A stretch of 64,000 bases of DNA from Cephalotus follicularis (Eukaryota > Streptophyta > Magnoliopsida > Oxalidales > Cephalotaceae), in assembly GCA_001972305.1 (NCBI GenBank), contig BDDD01002930.1, forward strand, positions 1 through 64,000. The letters are read 5' to 3'. Positions 2,226 to 63,325 of this stretch are shown here, piece by piece. How positions within the stretch are numbered: the stretch's first letter is position 1; each line of letters opens with the position of its first letter. The notes beneath the pieces are model-generated. The model did not search any database, was not told the DNA's origin, and worked only from the letters and a program-made list of their open reading frames with translations. Position numbers and translations under genes: made by a program.

Positions 2226-2299
2226 CCAGCCGACTAGACTCACAATCCAGTTGAGTGCCTAAACATCCGCCGATTGGCCATAAATGCCCAGTCGACTGG
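2226..2299. repeat. Palindromic-word cluster in the S1 pol-ORF2 spacer
   Basis: Four spaced copies of the word occur (CAGCCGACTAG, CAGTTGAGTG, CGCCGATTGG, CCAGTCGACTGG), in the same spelling as the S1 LTR cluster at 4320-4705. The spacer from 1986 to 2414 contains no other feature I can support. Confidence 0.7.
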
Positions 2300-2414
2300 T
2301 GGTGTGGGAATCAGGTTTTATAAACCTGATTTTTTCCCTCTTTCTTTCTATCTATACCCTCTAAACCTACCAAAACCCTAAACCCTCTCCGCAAACTTGC
2401 TCTAACCGATTTCT

Positions 2415-3526
2415 ATGCCATCCAAGAGAAGAAAGAGCATTGGAACCAAGAATTTGTGACCATCTCAACCAGTGAATCACTATGACGACGAACTATTTCT
2501 CTCCAAAGAGAAGGAGACTAGGTATCACTCCGTTCTCAATTCTGTAAAATTACACAATGAAACATGGATTGATAGAGATATTTTGGTCAGTAATATTGCT
2601 ACTATTAGTTCTTGGCTTGAACAAATGGGATGTTTTGATTATTTGTGCTCATCACACACTATATACCCTAGGTTAGTCAAGCTTTTTTATGCAAACTTAG
2701 AAAATTCTACCACCTGTGTTGCAAAATCATTTATTCATGGCAATCCTATCTCTATTACACCCGAACTTATTGCCGAAACCATAGGAATTCCTTGTTCCAG
2801 CATTACACACAACAATGAAATCGAGAAATCGAAGGCCTTAGGAATTTGCCTAGAACGCCCCGATTTTAATCTGGCCATGACCGTCACTAGTTGTCACCTC
2901 CCTATTTCCACCCACATTCTTCTATTAATTATCACCAACACATTATTTCCTAGAGAAGGGCATACCTTACCTTCTGAGCGAGACCTTAAACTTTTAGCTT
3001 GTATAAAAAATTGCACACTTGTGAACCTCCCATATCTCATTGTTAACCATTTGCTGTAAAGACCGAACCATATTCCCTACCCTATGCTTATTAGTAGGGT
3101 CTTAGCGTCCCTAATTCTTGACATTTCTGATGATGAGCACAAGGTCAAACCCAATCCCAAGCAACTAATAAACAAAGTCAGACTTAAGAGTTGCAATATT
3201 AAGCTTGAAGATTGTTATGGGTAAACTAACAAGCTGGTGTAAGAGCACCTGTGAGTGAACCGGGTATGAGAGTTGGAGGAGATGGTGATGAAGATGAAGA
3301 TGATGATGATGACGGTCAGCATTTTGAAATGAGACCGAATGTTGGAGGGAGTAGCAGCAGTGGTAGTAGACCCACTTTGGAGTCTCTTCAGGCTCGGATG
3401 GACTTAGCTCAAACTGACATTGAATACGTTACAGGAAGAGTGGATCAAATTTATGATAGTCAAGCCACTCTCATCCAAATGTTCCAAAATGCCTTTCCGC
3501 AGAACCCTCATACCGGATCCTCATGA
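2415..3526 (+). pseudogene. S1 ORF2, Sirevirus extra ORF ('envelope-like' by position), broken
   Basis: An ATG at 2415 opens with a lysine/arginine-rich start (MPSKRRKSIGTK) and hits a stop after about 14 codons. A shifted frame then runs from about 2472 to 3059 (195 codons). Its core includes IYPRLVKLFYANL, FIHGNPISITPELIAETIGIP, and HILLLIITNTLFP. I recognise this as the plant-transposon type domain seen in ORF2 of Sireviruses. A third block (3251-3526) has an Asp-rich run, a Ser/Gly linker, and a predicted coiled coil (SLQARMDLAQTDIEYVTGRV). I see no signal peptide or convincing membrane anchor, so 'envelope' is a positional name only. The same order occurs in S2 ORF2 (31600-30273). Confidence 0.75.
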
Positions 3527-4155
3527 CCTACATTTCGTGCCTTGCATGTTTTTCCTGTATTTTGTAATGACCTGTAGTTGAAGTTTTAAGTTTAATGGAT
3601 TTGATGTTGATTTTGAAATTGTAATGAATCTTTAGTGATTATGAAATGTACTTGCTACTTTCAGGTTGATGAAAGTGTGTTTTTATTTAGCTTATTTCTC
3701 TCTTCATAGTTTGCTCAAATACCATTTACATATATGTGTTAATGTTTTCTTTTTTTTCCTAAGATGGAAAACTCCTTATACTTGTGCTAAACAATTGATT
3801 TTCCTTTCTCTTTGATCTCTACATTTTATATCTATTTGAAGTATGCAACTGTTAAGGTGGAGTTTTTGAACCACATGCTTTGGTTGAGGGGGAGCTCAAT
3901 TTCTTTTTGTTGTTTGACAAAAAGGGGGAGAAATGTTTAAGTTGTGCATTTTGTGCAAATGAAATTCGTTGAGAAAAAGTATGAAATTTTGTGAATTTTT
4001 GTGTTGTGCAAGTGTATTTTGTTGTGCTCTAGGCCTTGAAATGCTGTGCTTATGCCAGATTTGATTATATTGGACCTTGGTTAATAAAAGTGTTATGTGT
4101 GTCAAAAATTATGCAAAATTTTGTATGTTTTGTCAATCATAAAAAATGGGGAGAT
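3527..4155 (+). other. S1 3' untranslated region with three polypurine tracts; no gene
   Basis: Three purine tracts point in the element's direction: GAGGGGGAGCT at about 3884-3894, CAAAAAGGGGGAGAAA at about 3918-3933, and AAAAAATGGGGAGAT at 4141-4155, which abuts the LTR and should be the functional plus-strand primer. S2 has an equivalent set of three. Multiple polypurine tracts are a known Sirevirus trait. No coding sequence is apparent. Confidence 0.75.
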
Positions 4156-4319
4156 TGTTGGCCTTCGCCACCCCGTTAATTGCTCTAACGAATGTTATTT
4201 CGATGATTAACAAAGATGTAATACTTGTATGCATATTTTTCTAGCTTACAAATTCATATTCATACTTGATTTTATGTCCAAACTTGTGCAAAGTGTAAAA
4301 CTGCGTATACAGGCAAAAA

Positions 4320-4705
4320 CAGCCGACTACCCAGGTTGGACAACCGACTGTTTCAGTTGAGTAGTCGACTGTTTAGGTTAAAAAGCCGACTGGAATTAGC
4401 AGGAATCCCAACAACTGGAACTGCACTCCATCCAGCCGACTGTATCAGGGGTCCAAACGACTGCCACGTCAAAACAGTCCACTGCCAAAGATCTCCAGCC
4501 GATTGTCAATAAGTGTCACAAAATGGCCGTAGCTTTTTGGAATTCCATTCCACCTCTACCAGCTGACTAGAACAGAGCACCAGCCGACTGCCAAGGCAAA
4601 CCAGCCGCCTGTCAACATTTCCAGCCGAATGCCTGCACCAACGACTATAATTTGAAATACGGGCCATCGACTCCAGCTGACTGTCTAGGAAATCCGGCCG
4701 GCTGG
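4320..4705. repeat. Palindromic-word cluster (AGYCGACTG) in the S1 LTR
   Basis: By eye there are about 15 copies at 15-35 bp spacing, most often CAGCCGACTG or AGTCGACTG, with the symmetric AGTCGACT as the clean form. The cluster stops just before the TATA-like site. At 4356-4374 the 19 bases GTTGAGTAGTCGACTGTTT are identical to a string in the Tekay LTR at 15951-15969. Confidence 0.85.
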
Positions 4706-4717
4706 ATTATGCCTGAC

Positions 4718-4729
4718 TTTAAAAAATAG
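4718..4729 (+). promoter_or_regulatory. Probable TATA box of the S1 LTR
   Basis: TTTAAAAAATAG lies about 560 bp into the LTR, directly downstream of the palindromic cluster. It is a weak TATA match; position and parallels with S2 and S3 support it. Confidence 0.35.
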
Positions 4730-7217: not shown

Positions 7218-7382
7218 CAGTCGAGTGCCTCTCAAAGCAGCCGACTGTTTTGCCTTCAACAGTCGACTGGACCCCTGTCATAGTCGACTGGATTCATACC
7301 CAGGTTGAGTAGTCGACTGTCTATGCGACGCAGTCGACTGCCACCTTTGAGTAGGCGATTGGATCTTGATGCAGTCAACTGG
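7218..7382. repeat. Palindromic-word cluster (AGTCGACTG) in B
   Basis: About nine words occur, including CAGTCGACTGG, TAGTCGACTGG, CAGCCGACTG and CAGTCAACTGG. At 7304-7320 it carries GTTGAGTAGTCGACTGT, shared with the S1 and Tekay LTRs. It lies about 210 bp before the TAAGGTACG landmark also found in B'. There the corresponding cluster is spelled differently. Confidence 0.85.
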
Positions 7383-9420: not shown

Positions 9421-9460
9421 GTTATAGAGCTCGGGTACAACGTGTACCACGGTTGGGACG

Positions 9461-10242: not shown

Positions 10243-10333
10243 ACAGTCGACTGTCACAGGGGAACAACCGACTGCCTAGTGCGTATTGTGGACAGTCGAC
10301 TGGCCCATGCATCCAGTCGACTGGAAATTCGAC
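10243..10333. repeat. Palindromic-word cluster 1 of the solo LTR
   Basis: Words include ACAGTCGACTGTCA, CAACCGACTGCC, ACAGTCGACTGG and CCAGTCGACTGG. The fragment TCACAGGGGAACA matches a linker unit of the G1 and G2 arrays. Confidence 0.8.
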
Positions 10334-11368: not shown

Positions 11369-11482
11369 CAGTCGACTGTCATTGAAAACAGTCGACTGCA
11401 TAGTTGATCCAGTCGACTGTAAAACCCCACAAGTCGACTACATAACCCAGAAGCCGACTGGTTCTTGAGAACAGCCGACTGT
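11369..11482. repeat. Palindromic-word cluster 2 of the solo LTR
   Basis: Six words in about 115 bp (AGTCGACTG three times, AGTCGACTA, and AGCCGACTG twice), ending TTCTTGAGAACAGCCGACTG. Position, number and closing linker match cluster 2 of G1 and G2. Confidence 0.8.
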
Positions 11483-14430: not shown

Positions 14431-15915
14431 CGTATCCGGGATTAGTCTTAACATGCGATGTTAACCTTTATCCGTAAATATGAGATATTTACTTTTATCC
14501 ATAGGAACCCATAAACGTAATGAACTCTCCTATAGAGATTGATTCTCGTGTATAAGGGATAATTTGAATGTGTTTCGATTAGCAAATTAGTTAGAAGAGT
14601 TCTAACTCGATTGGAGATGTCACACCCCGCCTTTCCAATACCGTTAAAGACAAGCATATATGGTGATATCAGAAATGAAAAAATATTCCAGCATTCCATT
14701 CAACAATTCACATATAAGCGGAAGCATTCAATAAGCCGGAATATAAAATAAAGTCATCCGCACGCGGCCCATACTACATGCGTATACAATCCATCAAATT
14801 ACCCTTTTACATGAGAGTAGTACAACAATAACACGGAGTGTGAACCGTTCAATACAAATACAGTACATCATCATAAAAATAACAACCGTAAGATAGAAAT
14901 AGCAACTCTCCAGAAGCTCCAACAGCACCTCCCGTATGTCTTTGTTTAATCTGAAATTGTAGGGGTTAGCCGTTGTCCTCACTTGGCTAAGTAGGAAGAT
15001 AATGCATGTTAAGGAATATACGAATGCAACAAGTATGACATTTTATATTGAAAATATATTTAATAAGTATTCCAATATATAAGCAATCATGCCAAGTGGC
15101 CATAGGCAATACAATGCAAGAATAACGCACAAGGGTACAATCAATTCATACTGTGGTTTGGGTATCACATGTCGCTACCTCCTAGCACAAACTGCGCACC
15201 ACCTATCTATCCCCTTCACTATGAAGATGATAGATAAGGTAACATTTACTGCCGGCGTTGTCGGGCAGTTTAACACATTGATCTGGAAGGCGGATAGGTT
15301 TGGTGGATACTCTAGCAAACTCCTGGCACATAGGATCACCTCCGTAGTCAGTGACCTCTACCATCACTCGACTAGCGGCATTAAGCATAGACAATCCATT
15401 CAGTAGAATATTACATATATGAATAGTATGCAATATAAAGGTTGTTTTCTTTAGAACATTTAACAATTCAGTAATCGTACATCTCGTAGGAGGAAAACGA
15501 TATTCTGTTCAATAATAGTGCCTCTCATTGGAGGAAAATCAGTTATCATTTGACAATATACATTTCCATTTTGAAAACCGTAAGGGATTCGTATTTGTGC
15601 TTAAAGCACTAGTTGGTTCAATCATTTGAAAATAAGCGACAGTAGTGTTAATGAACACCGTAGACAGTATATACTAATTATGACAGTAGCATATATAGCA
15701 AACAGTAAGCACAGCAATAATCCAAGGTTCAATAAGGTCATTGTATACTCTAGTTACTCTTGTAAAATCTCACAAGGAGTATAGACATTGTTTAATTTCT
15801 GGAATTTAATTATATAAGGCCAGGAGTGACTATCATAGTCATCCCATACGTAGGCCAGGTTAATTACATTCAATTGAAGGCCCAATCAGGGCCTGTATCA
15901 CAATTCTGACCCAGA

Positions 15916-16029
15916 ACAGTCGGCTGTTTCCAAGAACAGTCGGTTGTTGGGTTGAGTAGTCGACTGTTTGTTCTTAACAGTCGACTGGTTCCTTTGAGTT
16001 GTTGACTTTCATGAACAACAGTCGACTGC
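15916..16029. repeat. Palindromic-word cluster 2, G1 3' LTR
   Basis: Six words, e.g. CAGTCGGCTG, TAGTCGACTG and CAGTCGACTGG, one decayed to TTGTTGACTTT. Contains the 19-base string GTTGAGTAGTCGACTGTTT (15951-15969) shared with the S1 LTR. Confidence 0.85.
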
Positions 16030-17080
16030 TTTGCCAAAAAAGGGCAGGCAGTTGCAGGTTATGCATTTTAATGTCGAAATACTAACCCAATAACACATGC
16101 AATCAAACATAAAATTAAGCATACATGATATGCACAATATATCTTCCAAAATATGTCATTACCCCTACCTTAAACGCTATCCCAAAATTAATTTTGATTG
16201 ATTTCTCTCTTTGAGTTTCCAAGGCTCTTTCACCAACTTAGCCTTCCAATCTCAGCAGAAATGATCTATACAATGCATGCTCGAAGGTTCAGTCATGTAA
16301 TCAATAAGTTAACTAATTCTAGTTACAATTACTACTCCAATAGTAGCTCATCAATAATTCATTAAGCTTCAAGATTACCCCTTTTACAATTGCTCCTTGA
16401 ACTCTTTGTCAAATATATTTCAATTGCAGATTCTATGATCTTAACGTGTTGATAGAAGATGTATATATATACATAAGGGATCAGTATACATCTACCTGGA
16501 CAACTAACAACTATAATTCAAATTAGAGCTTACAACCTCAACTCTTCTTGAACCATTTACCAATTCCATTTCAATTCCAGAAATTGCTAACCTTAATCAT
16601 GTTAACAGAAGGCATTCTAACATACTCCTAGTTACATTATTAACAAATCACTACATCAGTGGTGAGCTCTGATTTGGGAACTTACCAGGAAAAATCTAAA
16701 GCTTCCAAGTCTCTTGAACACCCCAAATCCTCCAAATGCAACTCCTACAATCCTCCAGCAAGTCTCCCTCTATCCTGAGTGTTTTCTAACTCTTAAAACA
16801 CTCAGGCAGTGTCTGTTTATAAGGGAGATGTATCCTGAATCCCGTTTTTAGTCATTAATTCTTCATTCACTTCCTCCTTCTCTCTCTCTCACATGTTCCC
16901 TTCTTTCTCACCTTTCTCTCTTCCCATTTCTGTTTGCAAGATGCAGGTCTGCAGAGCATATGCAAAGCATTCCTTTTTTACATGTTCTGGTAGCTGCTGT
17001 CTCACATGACACCTGCCCATCATGCACTCCCTTTGGATCTATCACACAGGCATGCACAGACACATGTTCTGTACCATTCC

Positions 17081-17185
17081 AGTCGACTGTCCATTCCTAG
17101 CATCAAACAGTCGACTGTTCCCCTGTGACAGTCGGCTGTTCCCCCATGAACTAGGAAGTCGACTGTTACCCTGTAACAGTTGGCT
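17081..17185. repeat. Palindromic-word cluster 1, G1 3' LTR
   Basis: Five words separated by recognisable linkers. Compared with the other Tekay LTRs it keeps the TTCCTAGCATCAAA linker unit but lacks the TATTCACTTGG unit. Confidence 0.85.
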
Positions 17186-17368
17186 TTTTTGCCCAATTTT
17201 GGTTGCTTAAGTTTATTACCCCAAGTTTGATTTATCAATTTGCGTTTCAACCAACCCAAGCGTTCACAATCACAGCTATTATGATAATTGGACACACGAT
17301 ATCAATTAAAATGTATGTTTTATTTAAAATTGGAGCAATATACATTAATTGAAATTGCGGTTATTACA

Positions 17369-22083: not shown

Positions 22084-23369
22084 TGCTTGTCACACCCCGC
22101 CTTTCCAATATCGTTAAAGACAAGCATATGTGGTGATATCAGAAATGAAACAATATTCTAGCATTCCATTCAACAATTCATATATAAGCGGAAGCATTCA
22201 ATAAGCCGGAATATAAAATAAAGTCATCCGCACGCAGCCCATACTACATGCGTATACAATCCATCAAATTACCCTTTTACATAAGGGTAGTACAACAATA
22301 ACACGGAGTCTGAACCGTTTAATACAAATATAGTACATCATCATAAAAATAACAACCTTAAGATAGAAATAGCAACTCTCCAAAAGCTCCAACAGCACCT
22401 CCCATACGTCTTTGCTTAATCTGAAATTGTAGGGGTTAGCCGTTGTCCTCACTTGGCAAAGGAGGAAGATAATGCATGTTAAGGAATATATGAATGCAAC
22501 ATGTATGACATTTTATATTGAAAATATATTTAATAAGTATTCCAATATATAAGCAATCATGCCAAGTGGACATAGATAATACAATGCAAGAATACCGCAC
22601 AAGGGTAAAATCAATTCATACTGTGGTTTGGGTGTCACATGTCGGTACCTCCTATCACAAACTGCGCATCAGCGATCTATCACCCTACACTCCGAAGATG
22701 ATAGGCTGGCAGTTTAACACATAAGATCTGCAAGGCAGATAGGTTTGGTGGATACTCTAGCCAACTCCTGGAACATAGGATCACCTCCGTAGTCAGTGAC
22801 CTCTGCCATCACTCGACTAACGGCATTAAGCATAGACAATCAATTCAATCAATTCAGTAGAATATTACATATATCAATAGTATGCAATATAAAGGTTGCT
22901 TTCTTTAGAACATTGAACAATTCAGTAATCGTACATCTCGTAGGAGGAAAACGATATCCAGTTCAATAATAGTGCCACTCATTGGAGGAAAATCAGTAAT
23001 CATTTGACAATATACATTTCCATTTTGAAAACCGTAAGGGATTCATATTTGTGCTTAAAGCACTAGTTGGTTCAATCATTTGAAAATAAAGGACAGTAGT
23101 GTTAATGAACACCCTAGACAGTATAAACTAATTATGACAGTAGCATATACAGCAAACAGTAAGCACAACAATAATCCAAGGTTCAATAAAGTCATTGTAT
23201 ACTCTAGTTACTCTTGTAAATTCTCACAAGGAGTATAGACATTGTTTAATTTCTGGAATGTAATTATATAAGTCCAAGAGTGACTATCACAGTCATCCCA
23301 TATGGAGGCCAGGTTAATTACATTCAATTGAAGGCCCAATCAGGACCTGTATCAAAATTCTGACCCAGA

Positions 23370-23484
23370 ACAGTCGGCTGTTTCCAAGAACAGTCGGTTA
23401 TTGGGTTGAGTAGTCGACTGTTTGTTCTTAACAGTCGACTGGTTCCTTTGAGTAGTCGACTGTCATGAAGAACAGTCGACTGCT
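23370..23484. repeat. Palindromic-word cluster 2, G1 5' LTR
   Basis: Six words, same order and linkers as the 3' LTR copy. The fifth word, decayed in the 3' LTR, is intact here (TAGTCGACTGTC). Confidence 0.85.
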
Positions 23485-24539
23485 TTGCCAAAAAACGGCA
23501 GGCAGTTGCCGGTTATGCATTTTAATGTCCAAATACTAACCCAATAACACATGCAATCAAACATAAAATTAAGCATACATGATATGCATAATATATCTTC
23601 CAAAATATGTCATTACCCCAACCTTAAACGCTATCCCGAAATCAATTTGGATTGATTTCTCTCTTTGAGTTTCCAAGGCTCTTTCACCAACTTAGCCTTC
23701 CAATCTCAGCAGAAATGATCTATACAATGCATGCTCGAAGGCTCAGCCATGTAATCAGTAAGTTAACTAATTATGGTTACAATTACTACTCCAACAGTAG
23801 CTCATCAATAATTCATTAAGCTTCAAAATTACCCCTTTTACAATTTCTCCTTGAACTCTTTGTCAAATATATTTGAATTGCAGATTCTATGATCTTAACG
23901 TGTTGACAGAAGATGTATATATATATACATAAGGGATCAGTATACATATACCTGGACAACTAACAACAACTATAATTCAAATTAGAGCTTACAATCTCAA
24001 CTATTCTTGAACCATTTACCAATTCCATTTCAATTCCACAAATTGCTAACCTTAATCATGTTAATAGAAGGCTTTCTAACATACTCCTAGTTACATTATT
24101 AACAAATCACTACATCAGTGGTGAGCTCAGATTTGGGAACTTACTAGGAAAAATCCAAAGCTTCCAAGTCTCTTGAACATCCCAAATCCTCCAAATGCAA
24201 CTGCTACAATCCTCCAGGAAGTCTCCCTCTATCCTCAGTGTTTTCTAATTCTCAAAACACTCAGGCAGTGTCTGTTTATAAGGGAGATGTATCCTCAATC
24301 CCGTTTTCAGTCATTAATTCTTCATTCCCTTCCTCCTTCTCTCTCTCTCACATGTTCCCTTATTTCTCACCTTTCTCTCTTCCCATTTCTTTTTGCAGGT
24401 TGCAGGTCTGCAGAGCACATGCAAAGCATTCCTTTCTTGCATATTCTTGTAGCTGCTGTCTAGCATGACACCTGCCCATCATGCACTCCCTTTGGTTCTG
24501 TCACACAGGAATGCAAATACAACTGTTCTGTACCATTCC

Positions 24540-24640
24540 AGTCAACTGTATTCACTTGGCAGTCGATTGTTCCGCTGTGATAGTCGGTTGCTCCGCCATG
24601 AACTAGGTAGTCGACTGTTACCCTGTTACAGTCGGCTGTT
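24540..24640. repeat. Palindromic-word cluster 1, G1 5' LTR
   Basis: Five words. It keeps the TATTCACTTGG linker unit but lacks the TTCCTAGCATCAAA unit, the opposite of the 3' LTR of the same element. Confidence 0.85.
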
Positions 24641-24820
24641 TTGCCTTATTTTGCTTGCTTAAGTTTATTACCCCAAGTTTGATTTATCGATTTGCGTTTC
24701 AACCAACCCAAGCATTCACAATCACAGTTATTATGATAATTGGACACATGATATCAATTAAAATGTATGTTTTACTTAAAATTGGAGCAATATACATTAA
24801 TAGAAATTGCGGTTATTACA

Positions 24821-25523: not shown

Positions 25524-27783
25524 AAATAATCTAGCCTGCCTTGTCAATTGTGATTGAAGCTAGCATGATTTTTGTATTTATTTGCATTCGGTTTTGGTAT
25601 TTTGAGTTGCTAGTTTTCCCAACAACGTTTTTGTTCGGTTCGAGCTACCATGTGATGCTTCAAATTTCTTTTCTATAGATTGACTAGTTGGCTTTTGATT
25701 CTAGTTTAATTTGATACCATAAACATTGTCATTTGGACAATTAAAGGGCAAGTTAGCATTTTGATGAGAGTTCATCTTGTTCTTGCATTTTCTTCTCTTT
25801 GATCTTTTTTTTTTACATTGAAGGATATGGAAAAGATATTAAAGGAGGTCAAAAGTTAACCTTAGATTAATCAAATGCTAATGGGGTTACCAAATGATTA
25901 AACTATCTTAAACATAAGCTAAAACCTTAGCAAAGTCTCTTATTTTGGTCGGCCACGCATTTTGAATTTGTGAGATTGCTTTTCTCTCACTCAAGGCCAT
26001 GTGCGTGTAGGAGCTTGTGTAAGAAAGCCATACCTACTATAAGAAGGCATGTGGTTGTAAGAGCTTGCTTCTAACCCTGGTTAAAACCAAAAATGCTAAA
26101 AGCCAAAGGTGTAGGCATTTGATGTCTAAAGTTGTCTTGCATGCATAAGACGACCATTTATGAGATGACGCGGACTCAGAGGAAGAGGTGAGACCTCGCT
26201 GCTCAAATGCAGACCTCAGAGGAAGAGGCCAGACCTCACTGTTTATATGCAGACCTCAGTGCTTGAGGTCAAACCTCGCTCCTTGAAGGTCGGACCTTGA
26301 GGTCAGACCTCGCTCCTTGAAGTTAGACCTCAGTGCTTGAGGTCAGACCTTGCTCCTTGAAGGTCAGACCTCACTCCTTAGAGGCAGACCTCGGTGTTTG
26401 AGCTTAGACCTCGGTGCTTGAGGTCAGACCTCGATGCTTGAGGTAAGACGTCGCTCCTTGAAGGTCAGACCTCGCTGCTGGAAGTGACACTTCGGTATTT
26501 CAAGGCAGACCTTAGAGGAAGATGTCAAAGCTGAAACCTCGAAGTGAGACCTCGGTGGAATAGGGAAGACCTCAGTGGAAAATGGCAGACCTCGCTGCTT
26601 AAGGGCAGACCTCAAAGGAAAAGCTCGAAGTCAGACTTTGATGCAGGATGGCAGACCTCAAAGATAGAGGTCTGATAAAAAAAACCTGAAGTGAGACTTT
26701 GGCGTTCGAAGGTGATGCCCTGATAATTGTTTAACGTTGATCAAGGGTCAATCAATGGATTAATATTCATCAACAGTTCATGGAATATTACTCAGGTAAC
26801 GAATCGTTGATTGAGGGCCGAAAAGTGAATAGTGTCAAGTATTGAACTAGGCCCGGTAATTGAATAGTGCAAAAGGTTACCTGAACCCAAATGTGAATAG
26901 TCTCAAGTGTTGATTTTGTCCCTCATTCACATCGGTTCAAGCCATAATCGATCTGATATCCGCAAAGTCGATTTTTTACCTAAATTCAAAAATTCGTGTT
27001 GATATGCAAAAAAAAAATAAAATCGTTCACATAAATTTTTTTAAAATTCATGCTAAATTAGTTTTATGCATAACTAATTAAAATCACAAGTTTGAGATTG
27101 AATGTTTTATATGCATGATGGAGATTATGGACTTAGACCTGGTTTTATTGGTTTTATTTTTTTTTTAATTAGATGTATGGTGTTTTATTGCTTCAAGGGG
27201 AGTGATTGTAATATTCTTTTAATTCGAGGCTTGCATGCCTTCCTTCTCTCTCTATTCTTCTTTGTATATTTCTATCTCCCTCTATGTACATCCCCTCGAT
27301 TGAAAAATTGAGGTTTCTTTCATAGTAGATAGTTTTTGTTTTACAAGAGTGTTCACCAGAAGATTGTTGGAAAGCATCAAGTGCCTTCGAAGATATGCTT
27401 GTATGGGATACAAAGCTGTGTAATAAAACACACAGGATAAGACCAAGCGATTTGCTTTGCTCGAGCAAATCACATTAGTAAAGTCCATAATCATCCATGT
27501 AGTTAATATATGTGATATATTTGCTAGGTTGCATGAGATGGGTTTAATGCTTATTATGAGATAATATGTTAGGATGCATAAGATGTGTTTGTCATTTTTT
27601 CATTATTTTCGAATAATGAATTACCATGTATGTGATACAATAATTAGAGCCATATTATTGGTTGTCAAACGAACTAATAATGGGATGGCCTAATTATGTT
27701 AACCCCTCTATTATAATAAATATCAAGAAATGGTGAAATGAACACAATATAGTGTTTGTTCACTGCCTTCCTCCATTGCTATT
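25524..27783 (+). other. D leader: untranslated, with a GAGGTC/AGACCTC word cluster; no gene
   Basis: About 2.2 kb between the primer site and the S3 insertion. I find no gag. Apart from the word cluster at 26182-26700 it is AT-rich sequence. From about 27100 on it resembles the leader of C, including a GGATGCAT(A/G)AGATG segment near 27570 and 38238. Confidence 0.55.
26182..26700. repeat. AGACCTC / GAGGTC word cluster in the D leader
   Basis: I count 16 exact AGACCTC in about 500 bp, alternating with GAGGTC or GGAAGAGG. Several pairs form GAGGTC-A-GACCTC inverted repeats (for example near 26299 and 26420). Linkers such as GCTCCTTGAA and GTGCTTGAGG recur. The architecture matches the GTCGAC clusters elsewhere, but with a different word. 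Confidence 0.85.
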
Positions 27784-28848: not shown

Positions 28849-29490
28849 GACGTCGACTTCTTTCAAAACGCGTCGATGTCTTTTTAGCTGGTAGCCGTTG
28901 TAGCGCTTGAACTAGCCGTTCCAGGTTTCCCGGATCTTGTTTATTTAAAAAGACGTCGACTTCTTTCCCAAAGGCGTCGATGTCTTTTCTGGGAAATCTC
29001 CAGGTATTGGCACTTTGAACATCTCGTCGACATCTTCTGTGAGAGTCGATGTGTTTTCTGGGAAATCCAGGTTGCTCTAGAAAGGCGTCGATGTCCATGG
29101 AAAGGCGTCGATGTCTTTCGTATGGACGTCGATGTCTTTACTGATAAGCATCGATGTCATTGCATGAAAATGTCCTGTAACTTTGGCATCAAAAGACGTC
29201 AATGTCTTCTTGGAAGTAGTCGATGTCTATCGGTATGGACGTCGATGTCATTACTGGAAGGACGATGTCTTCATTGTATTTTGATCTTGCACTAAAGACG
29301 TCGATGTCATTTCTTTGAGAGTCGATGTCTTTCTGTACGGACGTCTATGTCTTTGCCTTTAGAAGTCGATGTCTTCATGTGAAATTGTCCTGTATCTTCA
29401 GGCATGAAAAGGAGTCGATGTCTTTTAGAAAGGGGTCGAGTTCTTTCGTACGGACATCGATGTTTATTCGTTGAAAGTTGATGTCTTCTT
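28849..29490. repeat. GTCGAYG word cluster, S2 3' LTR
   Basis: More than 20 copies of GACGTCGACTTCTTT or GGCGTCGATGTCTTT-like words in 640 bp, with short variable linkers. Many contain the palindromes GACGTC, GTCGAC or ATCGAT. Confidence 0.9.
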
Positions 29491-35559: not shown

Positions 35560-37625
35560 GATCTCTTGCCATGGAGGCCAGGAGAATCAGATCCTTATTC
35601 CCTATGACTAAATTGTTCCAAGACATAGGTTCACTTTCTTTGGGCCATTGTTGAACCGTGATAAAGACTTGCCACATTATGCTTGCTTCCAGGGAGGGAG
35701 GATGGATCTTCTCATGGACCATTCGGTATTATCCTAAAGCTAATGTGGGGTTCGTGCGCGGATGCATGATGCTGAACTGACCCATCGATATGATCCCTAT
35801 TTTGATAGTCAATACCCATGTCAATAGGGATTCCTATGGTCTCGGTAGTGTATAGTCTATGGTGACTAGTAGGTCCACACCTGCATTGTCTCTTTTGACC
35901 TGAGCTGCTAGCATGAATTTTGTGGAGACTACTTGACTTTGGCTTCTACCTTCCCCAACACTATCCATGTGCTAGCAAAAGGGTTATCTTTGGGTTTTGT
36001 TGAAGCTGCGTTCAGATGTATGAGCGAGTGTGCAACAACGGATCATCACACCCAGACTGAGGGTGACCAGCTCTATTTATCTATGTACGTTGTAGACTTA
36101 AACTCCTGATCAGGTTATAGATGGACCAGAGAAGGGGTAGTTTCCATGGGAGGTCTATCATAGTCTCAGTGTGATCATAGATATTTAGTATCACAGATAA
36201 ATCTAGGGGTGACATTCATCCAAACCATAGACCGTTGATTGAAACTAAGTATGACAAGGGAAACATGACACATATGCCGATGATCAGGTAAAGCGACTGG
36301 CTATTTTGTCCCTTATTAATAGACGTGGTAATACACGGATCCGGGGGGTGACTGGAGATCACACCGAGGCTATTTTAATAGTCGGTGACTATTAGAATAG
36401 TCGTACCAGAAAAACGGGATGATCTGGGAATTTATCATCATACTAGAGATCGACAAGCTTTCGGGTTCTGCCTGACTTTGAATTGGTTGACGTGTAGAGA
36501 AACATGTCATTTAGTAAAAGGTTGACCATGTTACTTTGCTAGTGAATATTTTATTTGCTGGATTCGGGTCCATGTAGTAGCACGATAAAATATTCCAAGT
36601 AAAGGGTTGATATGAATTTACATTAACTGCTTTGGGAACTTATTGTAAAGAGAGAGCATTGGGCTATCTTTTGGGCTTGGGATTAATTCCCATGTTATAT
36701 TCGATTTTGGGCTATAGGGAATGGACGATCTTGGCTTGTTTTTGGGCTCAATATTGTATAATATTGGGAGGTCCAAAATCATGCCCAAATTAATTGCCCA
36801 CATTAGTTGACTTTGTCAACTTATTCCTCCATATGGCATCACACGGCATTACACTTTGTGGGAAAGTGAATGGCTGGCCATGTGGTTTAAATGAAGATAT
36901 TTTGAGATGAAATAAACATGTGAGAAATTTACTTCGTGGAGAATTGATGAGTCATGTTGCATTTAATGCTAAAAGTCAAAACTAATAAGTAAAGCTTAAC
37001 TTACTCATCAAGTTATGTTTTTCACCTTTATTAAGAGAATGACTCACAGAAATTGGTGACTCTCTCTTGCAATCTCTCCCTCTCACATAAGTGCTATCTC
37101 TCCCATCTCACTTTTGGTGGCCATGATTCTCCTTTACAAAAGGGAAACGGTGCAATTTGTCTCCAAACAAAGAGAATTACATATCAATAAACCTTTTGCA
37201 CTTCCTTAGTCAATTAGGTGGAGATTACTTTGTATATTACATTGGATATTTATCTATATTGATGTAGTCTATGTTAAACACAAAACTTCTCCATCTTCTC
37301 CTCCTTGCCGTGGTAAAAGGAATGTCTTGGAGCTTTTGGTTTTGGATAAAAGAGTAGAGGGAGCTTGACTTGAAGGAAGGAGTTCTTCACTTTGGTAATA
37401 TTTTCTTCTCCTTCTTTTGTCTTCATAATGCTTGGCGATGGATTTAGTTTTGGTTGTATGTTTAATTAGTGATCTTGGACATTATTTGGGACTATTTGAA
37501 ATGAAGTTTTAGGTAATTCCATTTCTTGGGAATTAACTATTCAGTTGGAATTAAAGTTAATCGCCCTAATGCTGAAAATTCAAATTGAGTGCTTCCGCTG
37601 TGCTATGAGCCATAGGTTCCCAAAA
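35560..37625 (+). repeat. C 5' LTR, part after S2
   Basis: Continues from 28205. Aligns with the 3' LTR from 43218 onward. Ends GGTTCCCAAAA just before a primer site. Non-coding. Confidence 0.9.
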
Positions 37626-45116: not shown

Positions 45117-45263
45117 TGTAATAACCGCATATTCAATCTGTGTATATTGTACTCTTGATGAATAAAATATGCACTTACTTTAATTTTAATTTCTAATTGT
45201 TATATGAATTGTGGTTGTGAATTCAATTGAGAAAATAAGCTTGAGCAACCAAAGTCAGGCAAA

Positions 45264-45392
45264 ACCGCCGACTGTTACAGGGTAACAGTCGACTGCCTGG
45301 TTCATAGGGGAAACAGCCGACTGTCACAGGGGAACAGTCGACTGTTTCATGGTAGGAATGGACAGTCGACTGCCAAGTGAATACAGTCGACT
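45264..45392. repeat. Palindromic-word cluster 1, G2 5' LTR (fullest copy)
   Basis: Six words with linkers, in order: GTTACAGGGTAACA, CCTGGTTCATAGGGGAAACA, TCACAGGGGAACA, TTTCATGGTAGGAATGGACA, CCAAGTGAATACA. This is the reference for counting units in the other Tekay LTRs. Confidence 0.88.
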
Positions 45393-46280
45393 AGAATGGT
45401 ACAGAACAGGTGTCTGTGCATGGGTGAAACAGAGTAGGGTAAGTGGTGACAAGTGTCGAACCGTGGCATGCATGAGGGATGCGTGTCACCAGCTACCTTA
45501 ACAGGGAAGGGAGGTGCCTTGCATGACCTCTACCCCTCTTGCAACCTGCAAACAGAAGATTGAAAAGAGAGAAAGTGAGAAAGAAGTGAACATGTGAGAG
45601 AGAGTAGGAGGACATATTGAAGGGAAGTAATGACACGAACTAAGCCTTATATCAGCTGCACATGAGCTGACTGAGTGTTAGAAAACACTGAAGAAGAGGA
45701 GAATTGCTAGAGAATTGTGAAAGCTTGCATTTGAGGATTGGAGGGTTCAAAGAGACTTGAAGATTTTGGAGCTCCCTAGTAAGTTCTCAATCCAAAGTCT
45801 CTGCTGATGTTGATAATGTAACTAGGAGGATGTTAGATATCTTCTGTTAACATGACTAAGGTTAGCAATTCCTAGAATTGAAATGGAATTGGTAAAAGGT
45901 TCAAGAAAAGTGGAGAGATATTGTTAATGTAAAAATGGAGACTTAATGGATTATTAAGAATTTTTGCTTGAACTTGTAATTGTAATGAGAGGATTATTGA
46001 TACTTACTGATATTAATGCATGTGTCCGTAAACATACATGTTATAGATTAAATTCTGCAAATTGGAAGATTGGTTGGTGAAAAGGACTTGGAAACTCAAA
46101 GAGAGAGATCAATCACAATTGATCTCGGGATAGCAATTGAGGTAGGGGTAATGACATATTTTGGAAGATATGAGTATGCATAACATGTATGGTTATTTTC
46201 TGCTTGATTGCATGCACTGATTGGTTTTGTATTTGGCATTGAAATATACAACCTGCTACTGCCGGCATTTTCTGGGCAAA

Positions 46281-46394
46281 GCAGTCGACTGTTCTACATG
46301 ATAGTCGACTACTCAACCTATCCAGTCGACTGTTAAGAGAAACCAGTCGACTACCCAATCAAAACAGTCGACTGTTCTTGAGAACAACCGACTG
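46281..46394. repeat. Palindromic-word cluster 2, G2 5' LTR
   Basis: Six words, e.g. CAGTCGACTG, TAGTCGACTA, CCAGTCGACTG, closing TTCTTGAGAACAACCGACTG. Confidence 0.86.
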
Positions 46395-47718
46395 TCCTGG
46401 GTTAAAATTCTGATATAGGCCCTGTTTTGACCTTAATTTTAATGTAATTAACTTGGCCTTCATATGGATGATTAGAACAATCAATCATGGCCTTATATAC
46501 AGTTACATTTCAGAAGCTAAACAAGTATGCAACCCTTGTGTGAGTTGCACATGAATGACTATGATATGTTAATTACCTCATTGAATGTCTTGAATTGCTA
46601 TTGTGCTTCACTGTTTACTGTATATACTACTGTCATAATTTGTATATACTATCTAAGTGTTCTTCAACACTATTACCACTTATTTTCAATGATCAAACCA
46701 AACTAAGTGCTATAAGCACGGATGTGGGTTTTACTAATGGATTTCAAAATGAAAACTTATGGCCAATGATTTACTACTCCTCCTATGAGAGGTACCTACT
46801 GTTTTGTTCTCCAACTAGGAACCACTATTGTATTGACATCGTTTTCCTCCCATGAGATGTACGATCAATGAATTGTTAAATGTTCTAAAGAAACAACTTT
46901 TATATTGCATACTATAGATATATGTAATATTTCTACTGAATTGTTGAATGGTTTGTCTATGCTTAATGTCGTTACTGGAGTGATGGCAGAGGTCACAGAC
47001 TACGGTGGGGATCCTAGGTGCAAGGAGTTGGCTAGAGTATCACCCAAACTTATCTGCCTTGCAGATCTTATTTGTTAAACTGCCCGCTAACGCCGCCAGT
47101 AAATGTTACCTGATCTATCATCTTCGGTGTGTAGGGTGATAGATAGGTGGTGCGCAGTCAGTGCTAGGAGGTAGCGACATGTGACACCCAACCAAAGTAT
47201 GAATATATTGTACCCATGTGCGGTATTCTTGCATTTGTATAGTCTATGGACACTTGGCATGGTTTCTTATATATTGGAATACTTAAATGTTATTTTAATA
47301 TAAAATGTAATACATGTTGCATTCATATATTCCTTAACATGCATTATCTTCCTACTTAGCCAAGTGAGGGCAACGGCTAACCCCTAGATTAAGCGAAGAC
47401 GTTGGAGGGTGCTGCTGAAGCTTTTGGAGAGCTTCTTTCTATCTTATGGTTGTTATTTTATTATGATGTACTGTATTTGTAATGAACGGTTCATACCCCG
47501 TGATGTTGTTGTACTTCCTTATGTATAAGGATATTGTTGGATTGTGCCTGCACGTAGTATGGGCTGTGTGCGGATGACTTGTATTTTATATTCTGGCTTA
47601 CTGAATGCTTCCGCTTATATATGAATTGTTGAATTGAATTCTGGAATATTATATTTATTTCTGATATCACCATATGTGCTTGTGCCTAATGGAATCGAGG
47701 GGCGGGGTGTGACAGGCA

Positions 47719-49935: not shown

Positions 49936-49937
49936 TA

Positions 49938-51480: not shown

Positions 51481-51628
51481 TGTAATAACCGCAAATTCAA
51501 TCTGTGTATATTGTACTCTTGATGAATAAAATATGCACTTACTTGAATTTTAATGTCTAATTGTTATATGAATTGTGGTGGTGAATTCAATTGAGAAAAT
51601 AAACTTGAGCAACCAAAGTCAGGTAAAA

Positions 51629-51708
51629 CAGCCGACTGTTACAGGGTAACAATCGACTGCCTGGTTCATAGGGGAAACAACCGACTGCCAAGTGAATACA
51701 GTCGACTG
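51629..51708. repeat. Palindromic-word cluster 1, G2 3' LTR (contracted)
   Basis: Four words. Relative to the 5' LTR, 49 bp are missing, exactly from one CGACTG to another. Confidence 0.88.
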
Positions 51709-52596
51709 GAATGATACAGAACAGGTGTCTGTGCATGCGTGAAATAGAGCAGGGACAGTGGTGACAAGTGTCTAACCGTGGCATGCATGAGGGATGCGTG
51801 TCACAAGCTGCCTTAACAGGCAAGAGAGGTGCCTTGCATGACCTCTATCCCTTCTGCAACCTGCAAACATAAGATTGAAAAGATAGAAAGTGAGAAAGAA
51901 GTGAACATGTGAGAGAGAGAAAGAGGAAATGTTGAAGGGAAGTAATGACATGAACTGAGCCTTATATCAGCTGCACATGAGCTGACTGAGTGTTAGAAAA
52001 CACTGAAGAAGAGGAGAATTGCTGGAGAATTGTGAAAGCTTGCATTTGAGGACTGGAGAGTTCAAAGAGACTTGAAGATTTTGGAGTTCCCTAGTAAGTT
52101 CTCAATCCAAACTCTCTGCTGATGTTGATAATGTAACTAGGAGGATGTTAGATATCTTCTGTTAACATGACTAAGGTTAGCAATTCCTAGAATTGAAATG
52201 GAATTGGTAAGTGGTTCAAGAAAAGTGGAGAGATATTGTTAATGTAAAAATGGAGACTGAATGGATTATTAAGAATTTCTGCTGGAACTTGTAATTGTAA
52301 TGAGAGGATTATTGATACTTACTGATATTAATGCATGTGTCAGTAAACATACATGTTATAGATTAAATTCTACAAATTGGAAGATTGGCTGGTGAAAAGG
52401 CCTTGGAAACTCAAACAGAGAGATCAATCACAATTGATCTCGGGATAGCCATTGAGGTAGGGGTAATGACATATTTTGGAAGATATGAGTATGCATATCA
52501 TGTATGGTTATTTTCTGCTTGATTGCATAAACTTATTGGTTTTGTATTTGGCATTGAAATATACAACCTGCTAATGCCTGCATTTTCTGGGCAAAG

Positions 52597-52710
52597 CAGT
52601 CGACTATTCTTCATGACAGTCGACTACTCAACCTATCCAGTCGACTGTTAAGAGAAACCAGTCGACTACCCAATCAAAATAGTCGACTGTTCTTGAGAAC
52701 ATCCAACTGT
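52597..52710. repeat. Palindromic-word cluster 2, G2 3' LTR
   Basis: Six words as in the 5' LTR, with point changes only (the last has become CATCCAACTG). Confidence 0.86.
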
Positions 52711-54042
52711 CCTGGGTTAAAATTCTGATATAGGCCCTGTTTTGGCCTTAATTTTAATGTAATTAACTTGGCCTAAATATGGATGATTAGAACAATCAAT
52801 CCTGGCGTTATATACAATTACATTTTAGAAACTAAACAAGTATGCAACCCTTGTGTGATTTGCACATGAATGACTATGGTATGCTAATTACCTCATTGAA
52901 TGTCTTGAATTGCTATTGTGCTTCACTGTTTGTTGTATATACTACTGTCATAATTCGTATATACTGTCTAAGTGTTCTTCAATGCTATTACCACTTCTTT
53001 TCAATGATTAAACCAAACTAAGTGCTATAAGCACGGATGTGAGTTTTACTAATGGATTTCAAAATGAAAACTTATTGCCAATGATTTACTACTCCTCCTA
53101 TGAGAGGTACCTACTGTTTTGTTCTCCAGCTGGGAACCACTATGGTATTGACATCGTTTTCCTCCCATGAGATGTACGATCAATGAATTTTTAAATGTTC
53201 TAAAGAAACAACTTTTATATTGCATACTATAGATATATGTAATATTTCTACTGAATTGTTGAATTGTTTGTCTATGCTTAATGCCGTTAGTCGAGTGATG
53301 GCAGAGGTCACTGACTACGGTGGGCATCCTATGTGCCAGGAGTTGGCTAGAGTATCACCCAAACTTATCTGCCTTCCAGATCTTATTTGTTGAACTGCCC
53401 GCTAACGCCGGCAGTAAATGTTACCTAATCTATCATCTTCGGAGTGTAGGGTGATAGATAGGTGGTGCGCAGTCGATTCTAGGAGGTAGCGACATGTGAT
53501 ACCCAACCAAAGTATGAATTGATTATACCCTTGTGCGGTATTCTTGCATTTGTATTGTCTATGGCCACTTGGCATGGTTGCATATACATTGGAATACTTA
53601 AATGTTATTTTAATATAAAATGTCATACATGTTGCATTCATATATTCCTTAACATGCGTTATCTTCCTACTTAGCCAAGTGAGGACAACGGCTAACCCCT
53701 ACAATTTCAGATTAAGCGAAGACATTGGAGGGTGATGCTGAAGCTTTTGGAGAGCTTCTTTCTATCTTAAGTTTGTTATTTTATTATGATGTACTGTATT
53801 TGTAATGAACGGTTCATACCCCGTGATGTTGTTGTACTTCCTTATATATAAGGATATTGTTGGATTGTGCCTGCACGTAGTATGGGTTGCGTGCGGATGA
53901 CTTGTATTTTATATTCTGGCTTACTGAATGCTTCCGCTTATATATGAATTATTGAATTGAATGCTGGAATATTATATTTATTTCTGATATCACCATGTAT
54001 GCTTGTGCCTAACGGAATCGAGGGGCAGGGTGTGACAGATTT

Positions 54043-54226: not shown

Positions 54227-54625
54227 TCGTCAACACCTTGATTATCCTCGTCGATGTGTTGGGAATTGCCATATTGCTGTCAATGCCATACGGACGACGT
54301 CAATGCCAAAAGGTGCAAAATTAATTCATTGATTTAGACGTTGATGTGAAGACATATTGGAGTCAACACCTATGAGGAAGACGTCAACACCATCTTGAGA
54401 CGTCAACGCAAAAGAATGCAAAAATCTGATAGTGACTTAGATGTTAACGTAGAAGGAGAAAGGAGTCAACACAAATGATATTGGCGTCAATGCTATGCGT
54501 ACACGTCAACGCCAATAAAGCAAAAATCAGACAGCAGTTATTGGAGTCAACGTGAAGAACTGAAGGAGCTAACGCATAAGGAGATAGACGTCAATGTCGT
54601 GCGTAAACGTCGACACCCAAGACAG
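54227..54625. repeat. CGTCAACGCC word cluster in S3
   Basis: About 17 words: GACGTCAACACC, GGCGTCAATGC, GGAGTCAACGTG, CGTCGATGTG, AACGTCGACACC and others. The first two copies lie before C, at 27934-27953. The cluster sits upstream of the TATA box, as in S1 and S2. Confidence 0.85.
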
Positions 54626-61183: not shown

Positions 61184-61896
61184 ATGGATTTTTTTAACAT
61201 ATAATATTAATATAATAATGATAATAATAGCAACAAAAAATAATAATATGCTCATGTCTTATGCAAATCAACCTCGTAAATGTGACACAGGGTGTCACAG
61301 CAGCCCCCACCGGTAGTGAGTTTGACTCACTGAGTCAACTCACCGGTCAACAAACAATTATGGCCACTTCACAAAAAGGGGTCCAGGAGGTCCGTACTAC
61401 GCGTCTACGCCCGTAACTCACCGAGAACCGGCGGCTGTCGCCGTGCTGGACCTCCGGCGGAGACGCCATTGCTCCAGTCTCACCACCACTAGCCTCCACA
61501 ACCTTCAGGCTACTCATTGGTGAGCGAGACTCGCTGGAAATTGGGGCCAAACATGTCGTCACAGCCGGCAGCGAGCCAAGGTGACTGAGTTGACTCAGCG
61601 CCTAGAATCTGGTCCATTTTGGAAAAATGATGCCACAGCCACCGTCAAAATGGGTGTAGGTGATACCCACGATGAAGACCAGCCCCACCCGCAATGATAT
61701 CAGTGGTTGGATAGCTGCGGCAGTCACCGCAGGGTGAAACAAAACAGAAAGAAAGGAGAAGAAAGAGGAAGAAGGAGGATACCTGGCAGTGGAAGTAACG
61801 TCGTCGCCATCTTTCCCGTCCTCCGGCGCCTGGCCCGACGTCTCTCTCCCATTCTCTGCATCTCTCTCTTGTCACTCTGTTCTTTCTTTCTTTCAT

Positions 61897-61960
61897 ACGG
61901 GCGCATGATGCGCCCGTCTCTTTCTCTTGTGTTTTAAAAATGCCTGGCGCGTCTAGCGCC
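61897..61960 (-). other. GC-rich hairpin pair in F1
   Basis: Hairpin 1 has perfect 10-bp arms at 61897-61906 and 61908-61917 (ACGGGCGCAT / ATGCGCCCGT), one base between. Hairpin 2 has 5-bp arms at 61946-61950 and 61956-61960 (GGCGC / GCGCC). The arms and loops differ from F2, but pairing is kept. Confidence 0.75.
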
Positions 61961-62300
61961 TTTTAGACGTGCCCGACTCCCTCTCTCTCTCTTTTTTTTA
62001 ATAAAAGGATAATAACAATATATATTTATAATAACCATATTAATAATACGCTCACATATTTTGTACGTCGACCTCGTAAAAGTGACACCGGGTGTCACAA
62101 TATCTACGTTACTTTTCCATTGTTAAAGCTTTATTGTGTTATTCTTTCATTGAGCTTTTATTGTGAGCCTTTGTGATATCCCGTTCCTATGCTTACATGT
62201 TCTATGTTGGATTTATACCTTTTGATGTAGGCTATGGTATGTGAATGCTTTGGTTTTTGGTTTGAATTTCTTTTTTTATTTTGTTTTCTGGGCACAAAGC

Positions 62301-62434
62301 GCCGACACTCTTATTAGAATCGACGACGCTTTGTCTACTGTGTGAGACACGTCGACGCCTAAACGTGTGACATCGACCCGTTTTGTGTTGGAGTGTTTAA
62401 CAGTCGACGCTTTAAGTAAACAGTTGACGCTTTA
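62301..62434. repeat. GTCGACGC word cluster 1 in B'
   Basis: Seven words: GCCGACAC, ATCGACGACGCTTT, CGTCGACGCC, CATCGACCC, CAGTCGACGCTTTA, CAGTTGACGCTTTA and the like, immediately upstream of a TATA box. Confidence 0.82.
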
Positions 62435-62465
62435 GTCGGCTTTCCATATCAGTTTGGACGGTGGG

Positions 62466-62475
62466 CTATTTAAGG
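62466..62475 (+). promoter_or_regulatory. TATA-like box of B'
   Basis: CTATTTAAGG, about 30 bp after word cluster 1. Confidence 0.5.
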
Positions 62476-63193
62476 AAAGGGAATTTTGCCATTTATGTTA
62501 ATCCGATTTTTCCTTCTTTGTTAAAGCCGAATCTGCAAGAAAGGAAAACTCATTAGATGCACGATTTACATTAATTTTCACTCGTTTTTGCTGATTTTAA
62601 AAGACTAAGAATTTATTTGAAAGAAAACTAGCTGCACTTTTTTTTACAAAACTCGTTTGGACGCATTTTCTACACTGATTTCGACGTTTTCTGGAGGTAT
62701 TTTCTAAACAAAAGTTGTAGATTACACTATGTAGTTTATGTATCATCTTTTATTTTGTAGTAAAACCGATTATAACTCGTATTCAAGCATGATTTTGGAA
62801 GCCTGTTGAAACAAAAATTTTGCTGTTATTTTTATATGATTATTCATGGGTTTTATTCATAACTGGTAATGTTGATGCTTAAAAATAAAGAAATCATGCA
62901 ATTGACGTATGTAGATATATATATATGTCACTGATATTATGATTTATACAGAAAATTTCGGATTATGGTGCATGATTTACAAACTGTTGTAAACCAGAAA
63001 TTTTAATTCAAGATTTTCATACCTTTGTTTTACTTTTGGTCATGCACTAAGATATATATAAAGGTATTTTTGAATTGGTATAACATATCACAGAACCTGC
63101 ATATCATTGTTTGTGCTCATTGATTTTTAAAAACGGATTTACTCATGTTTTGCCGGCAATTTTCTGCAATTGGTATTCTGGGTCTGGCGCAAA

Positions 63194-63325
63194 CCGTCGA
63201 CGCTTTCGTTCTGAGCGTCGCCACTTTGTATCGTTTTATCCTTTGGTCTGTCGACTCTTGGCTCGACGCTTTGTCCTTTTGTACAACTAAACCGTCGACG
63301 CCTAAGAACAAACTGTCGACGCTTT
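63194..63325. repeat. GTCGACGC word cluster 2 in B'
   Basis: Seven words, e.g. CCGTCGACGCTTT, GCGTCGCCAC, CTGTCGACTC, CCGTCGACGCC and CTGTCGACGCTTT. Same spelling as cluster 1; located about 720 bp after the TATA box and 145 bp before the TAAGGTACG landmark shared with B. Confidence 0.85.

Follow-up and report, generated by a model that had tools for sequence, protein, structure and literature searches.

How do retrotransposons of different superfamilies come to carry, in one plant, regular clusters of the same short self-complementary word? The question is raised by a stretch of 64,000 nucleotides from Cephalotus follicularis (contig BDDD01002930.1, positions 1 to 64,000; hereafter the window), in which such clusters lie in the long terminal repeats (LTRs) of Ty3 type elements and, in Sirevirus-like Copia elements, both in the LTRs and upstream of an accessory gene of family PF20167. 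An earlier note on this DNA had described dense word clusters in the elements or regions S1, S2, B, B' and D, in the LTR pairs of both Ty3 type elements (E1 and E4) and in a solo LTR, and all of these were confirmed. There is strong support that the pattern is real and unusually regular, and it is most likely cis-regulatory. The reading that we favor, on the strength of sequence features, is that the arrays probably allow a dimeric protein to bind cooperatively and to act on element promoters.

The words are dyads centered on TCGA, with AGTCGACT and CRTCGAYG as the main classes. No 8-mer in the window is more over-represented than AGTCGACT, which is seen 41 times where 0.46 occurrences are expected under a trinucleotide model. 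Genome-wide counts were made on the C. follicularis assembly (1,577,397,061 bases, or 1.58 Gb, in 9,746 contigs), where AGTCGACTG occurs 249,142 times in the forward and 248,663 times in the reverse orientation, against 3,430 and 3,352 for the reversed control. The sample from outside the window was 25 loci, which together hold 208 kb of sequence other than N, one of them having just 93 bases and another consisting wholly of N. Among palindromic 8-mers in these loci, AGTCGACT (33), CGTCGACG (33) and CATCGATG (27), all three with TCGA at their center, are surpassed only by three composed of A and T alone, the median over all 256 being 2. The octamers at the 163 phased sites that lie outside the window were CATCGACG (28), CGTCGATG (28), AGTCGACT (24), CGTCGACG (23) and CATCGATG (15), followed by a tail of others. 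The word extends to about AAAGACRTCGAYGTCTTT in the C class, in which dyad information reaches about 7 bp either side of the core, and to CAGTCGACTG in the A class.

It had been proposed that most clusters share a TCGA core and that each element has a spelling of its own. The shared core holds for the main classes; the D core is GAGGTC-A-GACCTC, yet its step is also 20 bp, and S3 is a TCAA variant with an array of RTCRAYR words, in which the exact word reported before (CGTCAACGCC) is found only once. Element-specific spelling was partly right, but the same word is used by Copia and Ty3 elements alike, and several spellings can occur within a single array: one run in the sampled locus L001 combines AGTCGACT, AGTCGACC and CATCGACG, and the internal array of S2 type mixes CGTCGATC, CATCGATC, CGTCGACT, CGTCGACG and AATCGACT. 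The sharing of words and the mixed arrays fit a tolerance around a fixed TCGA center, and they lean away from the suggestion that spellings diversify as elements escape recognition.

The second regular feature is the spacing. Arrays were defined as at least four TCGA sites with gaps of at most 75 bp and at least two steps of 19-22 bp, which gave 8 arrays in the window and 20 in the 25 other loci, 28 in all. In 40 dinucleotide shuffles of the window and loci the mean was 0.075 arrays and the maximum 1, and the clusters thus do not occur at random density. With the other 15 palindromic 4-mers the loci yielded 0-7 arrays and the window 0-2 (the next best, ATAT, 7 and 0), and among all 16 a strong pile-up of close pairs at 19-22 bp was seen only for TCGA, CGCG having a small excess at 20-21. 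In place of the loose spacing of 15-35 bp that had been described, the TCGA steps have a main peak at 20-21 bp, lesser ones near 42, 50, 63, 71 and 92, with a further, weak peak near 29; a scan of step windows found 16 TCGA arrays at 17-20, 15 at 20-23, 6 at 41-44 and 0-2 elsewhere. Steps of 20-21 and 31 bp correspond to two and three turns of the helix.

The same step was found genome-wide. There are 131,686 exact pairs of AGTCGACT separated by 0-30 bases, against 414 for the reversed control, and 108,824 of the 131,686 fall at gaps of 11-14, or steps of 19-22, which are 4 of the 31 possible gaps. For the S2 word GTCGATGTC there were 15,420 and 15,826 pairs (control 88 and 66), with 96 of the 100 pairs listed at 19-22; for the B' word GTCGACGCTTT 4,697 and 4,746 (control 17 and 14), with 77 of the 99 listed at 19-22 and 12 at 29-32. 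For the D word CAGACCTC the counts were 1,740 and 1,823 (control 4 and 5); the range 19-22 takes in 79 of the 100 listed, and a step of exactly 20 accounts for 68 of these. The RTCRAYR words of S3 in the window follow one another at 21, 29, 20, 63, 21, 19, 63, 21, 19, 41, 44 and 19 bp. The reversed control TCAGCTGA is itself a palindrome; 341 of its 414 close pairs lie at steps of 19-22, and it may be another, rarer word with the same grammar.

The elements that carry the arrays were delimited in the window by repeat comparison and Pfam matches. E1, on the minus strand, has the gag-PR-RT-RNaseH-INT order (protease, reverse transcriptase, ribonuclease H and integrase after gag) of the Ty3 type; E4, on the plus strand, is a related Ty3 type element (about 80-85% identity), and the solo LTR of the same kind lies at about 10055-12808. 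The labels Tekay and chromovirus come from the earlier note alone, and Pfam scans of the window reported no chromodomain. S2, on the minus strand, has a Copia gag and retains a remnant of reverse transcriptase and RNase H; its AGGGGGAG purine tract, present in several copies and followed by ATTG, matches the Sirevirus tract and junction as given in the accessible part of PMC2829016. S1 has a Copia reverse transcriptase at 789-1613 and AGGGGGAG tracts, its junction differing from the Sirevirus AT/TG type, and in L001 a tract of AGGGGGAG type ends at the LTR start. E3 is a plus-strand Copia element.

Arrays of AGTCGACT are found in the Sirevirus-like S1 and L001, in B, in E1 and E4 and in the solo LTR; the S2 5' LTR holds 19 words and the five Ty3 type LTRs 9-12 each. 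When words were masked, 100-bp flanks kept and arrays grouped at E below 1e-3, the 28 arrays fell into 16 families, between which no homology was detected other than in the words; the solo LTR fell in with E1 and E4, and B with the locus L002, while L001 and L017 stood separately. The S1 arrays, mostly of AGCCGACT, are outside this set of 28. Masked S1 and B regions match only themselves (E 0.05), and without masking B can be aligned with the Ty3 regions at about 72%. There is also a satellite-like block at L017:5966-7730, whose repeats make it similar to itself at an offset of about 400 bp.

The words are conserved. In the Ty3 LTRs (E1, E4 and solo), words were taken from one sequence and identity was scored between the other two; it was 39/40, 39/40 and 45/48 in words (94-98%) and 42/70, 27/50 and 47/62 in the spacers within clusters (54-76%). 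In 21 internal arrays of S2 type the non-CpG core letters were off the majority in 8 of 445 cells, the spacers in 242 of 3503 and sequence outside the array in 1531 of 10672; the four core-adjacent letters (54 of 601) deviated no less than spacers. All 6 majority CpGs of the Ty3 array 2 region, compared in 22 copies, lie inside words. Between the LTR pairs of E1, S2 and E4, CpGs were kept in 42 of 48 cases in words and 66 of 111 elsewhere; the wordless E3 pair, which kept 14 of 43, is outside this comparison. CpG-to-TG/CA changes numbered 4/46 in words and 26/92 elsewhere in the LTR pairs (Fisher 0.009), and 27/366 against 27/202 in the S2-type arrays (0.025), although both figures outside words may be too high on account of newly arisen CpGs and older differences between subfamilies. 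Word CpGs in the Ty3 copies decay too (17 of 132). As a proxy for hypomethylation of the arrays, CpG decay is for these reasons only suggestive.

Position is the next line of evidence, and it firmly ties the array to the PF20167 gene. In the internal array of S1, 21 bp separate the end of the last word from a TATAAA downstream (2319), and 117 bp separate it from the start codon ATG (2415) of the PF20167 open reading frame (ORF). In the 120 of 309 matches listed, the PF20167 homologues of an S1 ORF are C. follicularis proteins. There are two PF20167 subfamilies, 19-24% identical in alignment, with 12,780 (A, P0123) and 14,874 (B, P0220) first-look candidates. Twenty upstream regions per subfamily were sampled, from at least 111 (A) and at least 109 (B); the locus L007 was set aside as an example of an upstream array because LTR-like sequence interrupts its PF20167 copy. 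Upstream of the A copies at least one exact AGYCGACT was found in 19/20 and at least two in 18/20, L067 having none; exact words are 19-22 bp apart in 16/20 and 41-42 in others, where the middle word is lost, and in 11/20 the distance from the end of the last word to the ATG is 116-121 bp. All 20 B copies have a phased array upstream. The arrangement differs in L081 and L079, and since the sampled copies are related, they represent few independent events. In most A copies (L066-L085, at about 540-565) the stretch between array and ATG holds a small inverted repeat around TTTTAAAA, possibly a TATA substitute or another dyad; the place that corresponds to the S1 TATAAA often falls within a small inverted repeat of GGTTTTAAAACC-like sequence.

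Clusters directly upstream of the TATA box had been noted for several elements. This is true of the S1 internal array; in the S2 LTR CTATAAAA lies about 100 bp past the last word, in S3 the distance is about 120 bp, and for B' the arrangement was not established. CTATAA is found among the words of the S1 3' LTR. Each S2 LTR also has three copies of AACGGCTA near the word array and TATA box (minus strand; 28768, 28892, 28913, 34717, 34841 and 34862), of 11 in the whole window. We take AACGGCTA to resemble MYB3R or MSA sites.

The proposal that the word is recognized by a dimeric factor is consistent with the dyad symmetry, the strand-neutral counts, the quantised steps, the conservation and the position of the arrays. 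Each word, an 8-18 bp dyad with TCGA at its center, would be a putative site for one dimer of a DNA-binding protein, and adjacent dimers, about two and sometimes about three helical turns apart, would bind cooperatively. The bound array might then act on a nearby promoter, either that of the LTR or a putative internal one that serves PF20167 in Sirevirus-like elements, and the outcome could be transcriptional or anti-silencing. Unrelated Copia and Ty3 elements would have gained or kept one word because all of them meet a common reader, or its near paralogues, in trans in the plant. The putative reader is most likely a family of host transcription factors.

A number of observations weigh against such binding arrays. 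No array was found in the E3 Copia LTRs, so that clusters occur in many elements and not in nearly every one. At the position of the S1 TATAAA, TATAWA was present in 1/20 A copies, a TTTAAAA-like run in 8/20 and neither in 11/20, and TATAWA follows the array in 2/20 B pieces; in the Ty3 LTRs a conserved CTTATAT lies about 105-125 bp past array 2, and the promoter was not located. Steps of 28-29 and 49-50 bp, which occur in arrays of Ty3 elements, of B and of the C class, do not amount to full turns of the helix, which leaves strict same-face phasing unproven and that argument incomplete. The count of 16 families has its own limits: masking leaves little sequence in dense arrays, one element can give two families (S2 LTR and S2 internal), copies within one family are not independent, and a masked Ty3 array 2 query without flanks does not match even itself, so that this comparison has no power. 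Finally, when RNA folding was compared with shuffles, AGTCGACT arrays were strongly structured (z -6.5 for Ty3 array 2, -3.8 for array 1 and -6.8 for B).

This last result, with z of -2.7 for the S2 internal array and -3.2 for D, is what would be expected if adjacent words paired in the transcript and the hairpins fed small-RNA production, the 21-bp step reflecting siRNA (small interfering RNA) length or hairpin geometry. The scarcity of a canonical TATA box at internal sites and the description of maize Sirevirus palindromes as small-RNA hot spots in the accessible parts of PMC10760457 and PMC5311732 would agree with it. However, S1 (z -0.7) and the S2 LTR (z -1.75) obey the same word and step rule with little structure, close to the E3 controls (-0.45 and -1.1), and mixed-spelling arrays retain TCGA and the step although their neighbors are not fully complementary. 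When hairpin and dyad complementarity were compared directly, the two models could not be told apart. Since one rule applies to all arrays, structured or not, it is better explained at the DNA level, and we regard the RNA-level explanation as unlikely. That the arrays are ancient, functionless minisatellites built from units of about 20 bp is still harder to believe: true longer tandem duplications do exist within D, the S2 LTR and S3, but in AGTCGACT arrays the spacers look unrelated while the words are identical, words resist change relative to spacers, the identical word and step recur in 16 array families, and other palindromic 4-mers show no such arrays. A signal for packaging, dimerisation or replication of element RNA or cDNA, a role that the earlier note had also raised, found no support and appears just as improbable. 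Self-complementary RNA words could in general seed kissing contacts between genomes, but the arrays lie in the LTR body and before the accessory gene, at several places per element, and are common to Copia and Ty3 elements with different gag proteins.

The main alternative to a host reader is one encoded by the elements themselves. PF20167 might be a dimeric, sequence-specific regulator that binds TCGA dyads at its own promoter and in the LTR, in an autoregulated activating or anti-silencing loop, much as VANC acts on VANDAL elements; high-copy Ty3 elements lacking PF20167 would then have acquired the array and exploit the regulator in trans. A PF20167 gene lies behind an array in 38/40 sampled copies from two subfamilies, and the word class differs by subfamily, A having AGYCGACT and B mixing CGTCGATC, CGTCGACT and CGTCGACG, with CATCGACG in the S2 LTR. 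PF20167 also persists in L001 (L001:4376-10000), which has a Copia gag and a weak zinc-knuckle match; three Copia pol queries from the window found no match in it and three of its ORFs gave no pol domain, and it is a probable non-autonomous element that has retained the accessory gene. The protein has a predicted C-terminal, coiled-coil-like helix and a basic N-terminus. On the other side, a match of word and protein is expected from common descent anyway, PF20167 was seen with only part of the array families, many being without a demonstrated copy, and 2/20 A copies hold fewer than two exact words. Nor did the models give a DNA-binding fold: the AlphaFold predictions (54 and 40 sequences) have a mean predicted local distance difference test score (pLDDT) of 42.1 and 44.5, the core not being modeled, and with both values below 45 no fold search was made. 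The profile had 10 weak matches to solved structures (E 0.03 to 0.83), coiled-coil-like by name. We therefore hold the element-encoded reader to be a tentative and rather doubtful explanation, and a host-encoded dimer remains the preferred one.

A link of PF20167 to DUF1985, the domain of VANC, or to PMD had been suspected from motifs. Neither was seen among the 25 of 38 domain families listed for the 40 PF20167 proteins (E up to 10), and a genome search for DUF1985 gave no match, in control genomes as well. One B protein, P0201, begins with MPRTKQTAKKK, from which its relatives P0200, P0202 and P0204 deviate. We take this N-terminus to be similar to the histone H3 tail, and it may be only a basic nuclear signal. 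The arrays and associated features are collected in Table 1; the window also has an 82-bp tandem repeat of 2.7 copies at 9457-9680.

Table 1. Word arrays and associated features, by position in the window
Feature	Position	Strand	Details
S1 internal array	2228..2297	+	AGCCGACT, decayed words, AGTCGACT; upstream of PF20167 ORF
S1 accessory ORF	2415..3523	+	PF20167 subfamily A; degenerate, in-frame stop
Purine tracts, two	3887, 3923		AGGGGGAG; upstream of S1 3' LTR array
S1 array, probable 3' LTR	4320..4672	+	AGCCGACT/AGTCGACT, several 21-bp steps
B array	7219..7382	.	AGTCGACT; TCGA steps 42, 21, 29, 21
Solo Ty3 type LTR, array 1	10243..10325	+	
Solo Ty3 type LTR, array 2	11370..11480	+	Steps 20, 21, 21
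E1 (Ty3 type) 3' LTR	14618..17368	-	Arrays 15917-16028, 17080-17165
E1 5' LTR	22088..24820	-	Arrays 23371-23482, 24560-24690
D array	26175..26660	.	GAGGTC-A-GACCTC type word, 20-bp steps
S2 3' LTR array	28851..29462	-	CATCGACG / CGTCGATG; LTR 28442-29605
S2 accessory ORF	30282..31600	-	PF20167 subfamily B; frameshifted
S2 internal array	31807..32080	-	Mixed spellings; upstream of PF20167 ORF
S2 5' LTR array	34800..35411	-	CTATAAAA about 100 bp downstream; LTR 34391-35554
E3 Copia LTR	35547..37454	+	Array-free negative case; second copy 43209-45119
E4 (Ty3 type) 5' LTR	45117..47715	+	Arrays 45265-45393, 46283-46396
E4 3' LTR	51481..54038	+	Arrays 51628-51707, 52598-52700
S3 array	54228..54615	+	RTCAAYR words, similar steps; CTATAA about 120 bp downstream
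B' array 1	62066..62430	.	GTCGACGCTTT half-sites
B' array 2	63195..63325	.	

More than 200,000 copies of one short dyad, at a fixed step and in both Copia and Ty3 elements, would mean that a trans-acting reader has shaped much of the transposon load of this plant. The arrays offer a testable grammar for LTR control, made up of core, step and number, and make PF20167 a candidate accessory gene for a role in Sirevirus-like elements; if the reader were element-encoded, this would be VANC-like control in retrotransposons, with one class of elements using the regulator of another. The occurrence of arrays in the LTRs of Ty3 elements, the use of a common core and word by more than one superfamily in a single plant, and the regular, quantised spacing are possibly new: a literature search, with most subscription papers outside its reach, found no report of them, which is weak evidence of novelty.

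Several known systems share parts of this design. In 2010, Bousios and colleagues described the repeated-motif (RM) boxes of Sireviruses, element-specific palindromes that lie in the LTR before the TATA box and again before env, with a CGG-CCG core and, in the accessible part of the paper, termed Sirevirus-specific in comparison with other Copia elements (PMC2829016). A dyad motif repeated at least eight times per element is found here too, but the main Cephalotus classes have TCGA in place of CGG-CCG, although according to the same part of that source the RMs of Vitis (CGGTCGACCG) and Tnd-1 (ACAATCGATTGT) are also TCGA-centered. Copies upstream of env have their counterpart in those upstream of PF20167 in S1, S2 and L001, an equivalence with env not being established. 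In Cephalotus, unlike in the RM-box system, Ty3 LTRs carry arrays (E1 and E4 are of Ty3 type and fall outside the Sirevirus hosts as defined by purine tracts and AT/TG junction), families share one word, and the steps are quantised, step being undiscussed in the accessible part of PMC2829016. A precedent for sharing across classes is the maize Sirevirus palindrome, which also occurs in maize Helitrons as far as the available part of PMC10760457 goes. S2 and L001 match the RM-box architecture with another core.

Maize Sireviruses likewise have a palindrome-rich cis region in the LTR. Their palindromes, studied by Bousios and colleagues in 2016, are reportedly hot spots of small RNAs and have been read through RNA secondary structure, whereas here two arrays obey the rule with little structure. 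In Drosophila, the Ty3 type element gypsy has a regular array of Su(Hw) sites, bound by one zinc-finger host protein and functioning as an insulator, its sites being non-palindromic. In VANDAL elements, arrays of short motifs in non-coding DNA diverge in spelling between relatives, as they do in Cephalotus; VANDALs are DNA transposons, and their proven reader, VANC, a sequence-specific anti-silencing protein that binds the motif and removes DNA methylation, carries DUF1985, which was not found for the Cephalotus elements in the families listed above (PMC5735166, PMC10398659, both in their accessible parts). By analogy, it is the VANC arrays that would appear to be the nearest mechanism to the arrays of Cephalotus.

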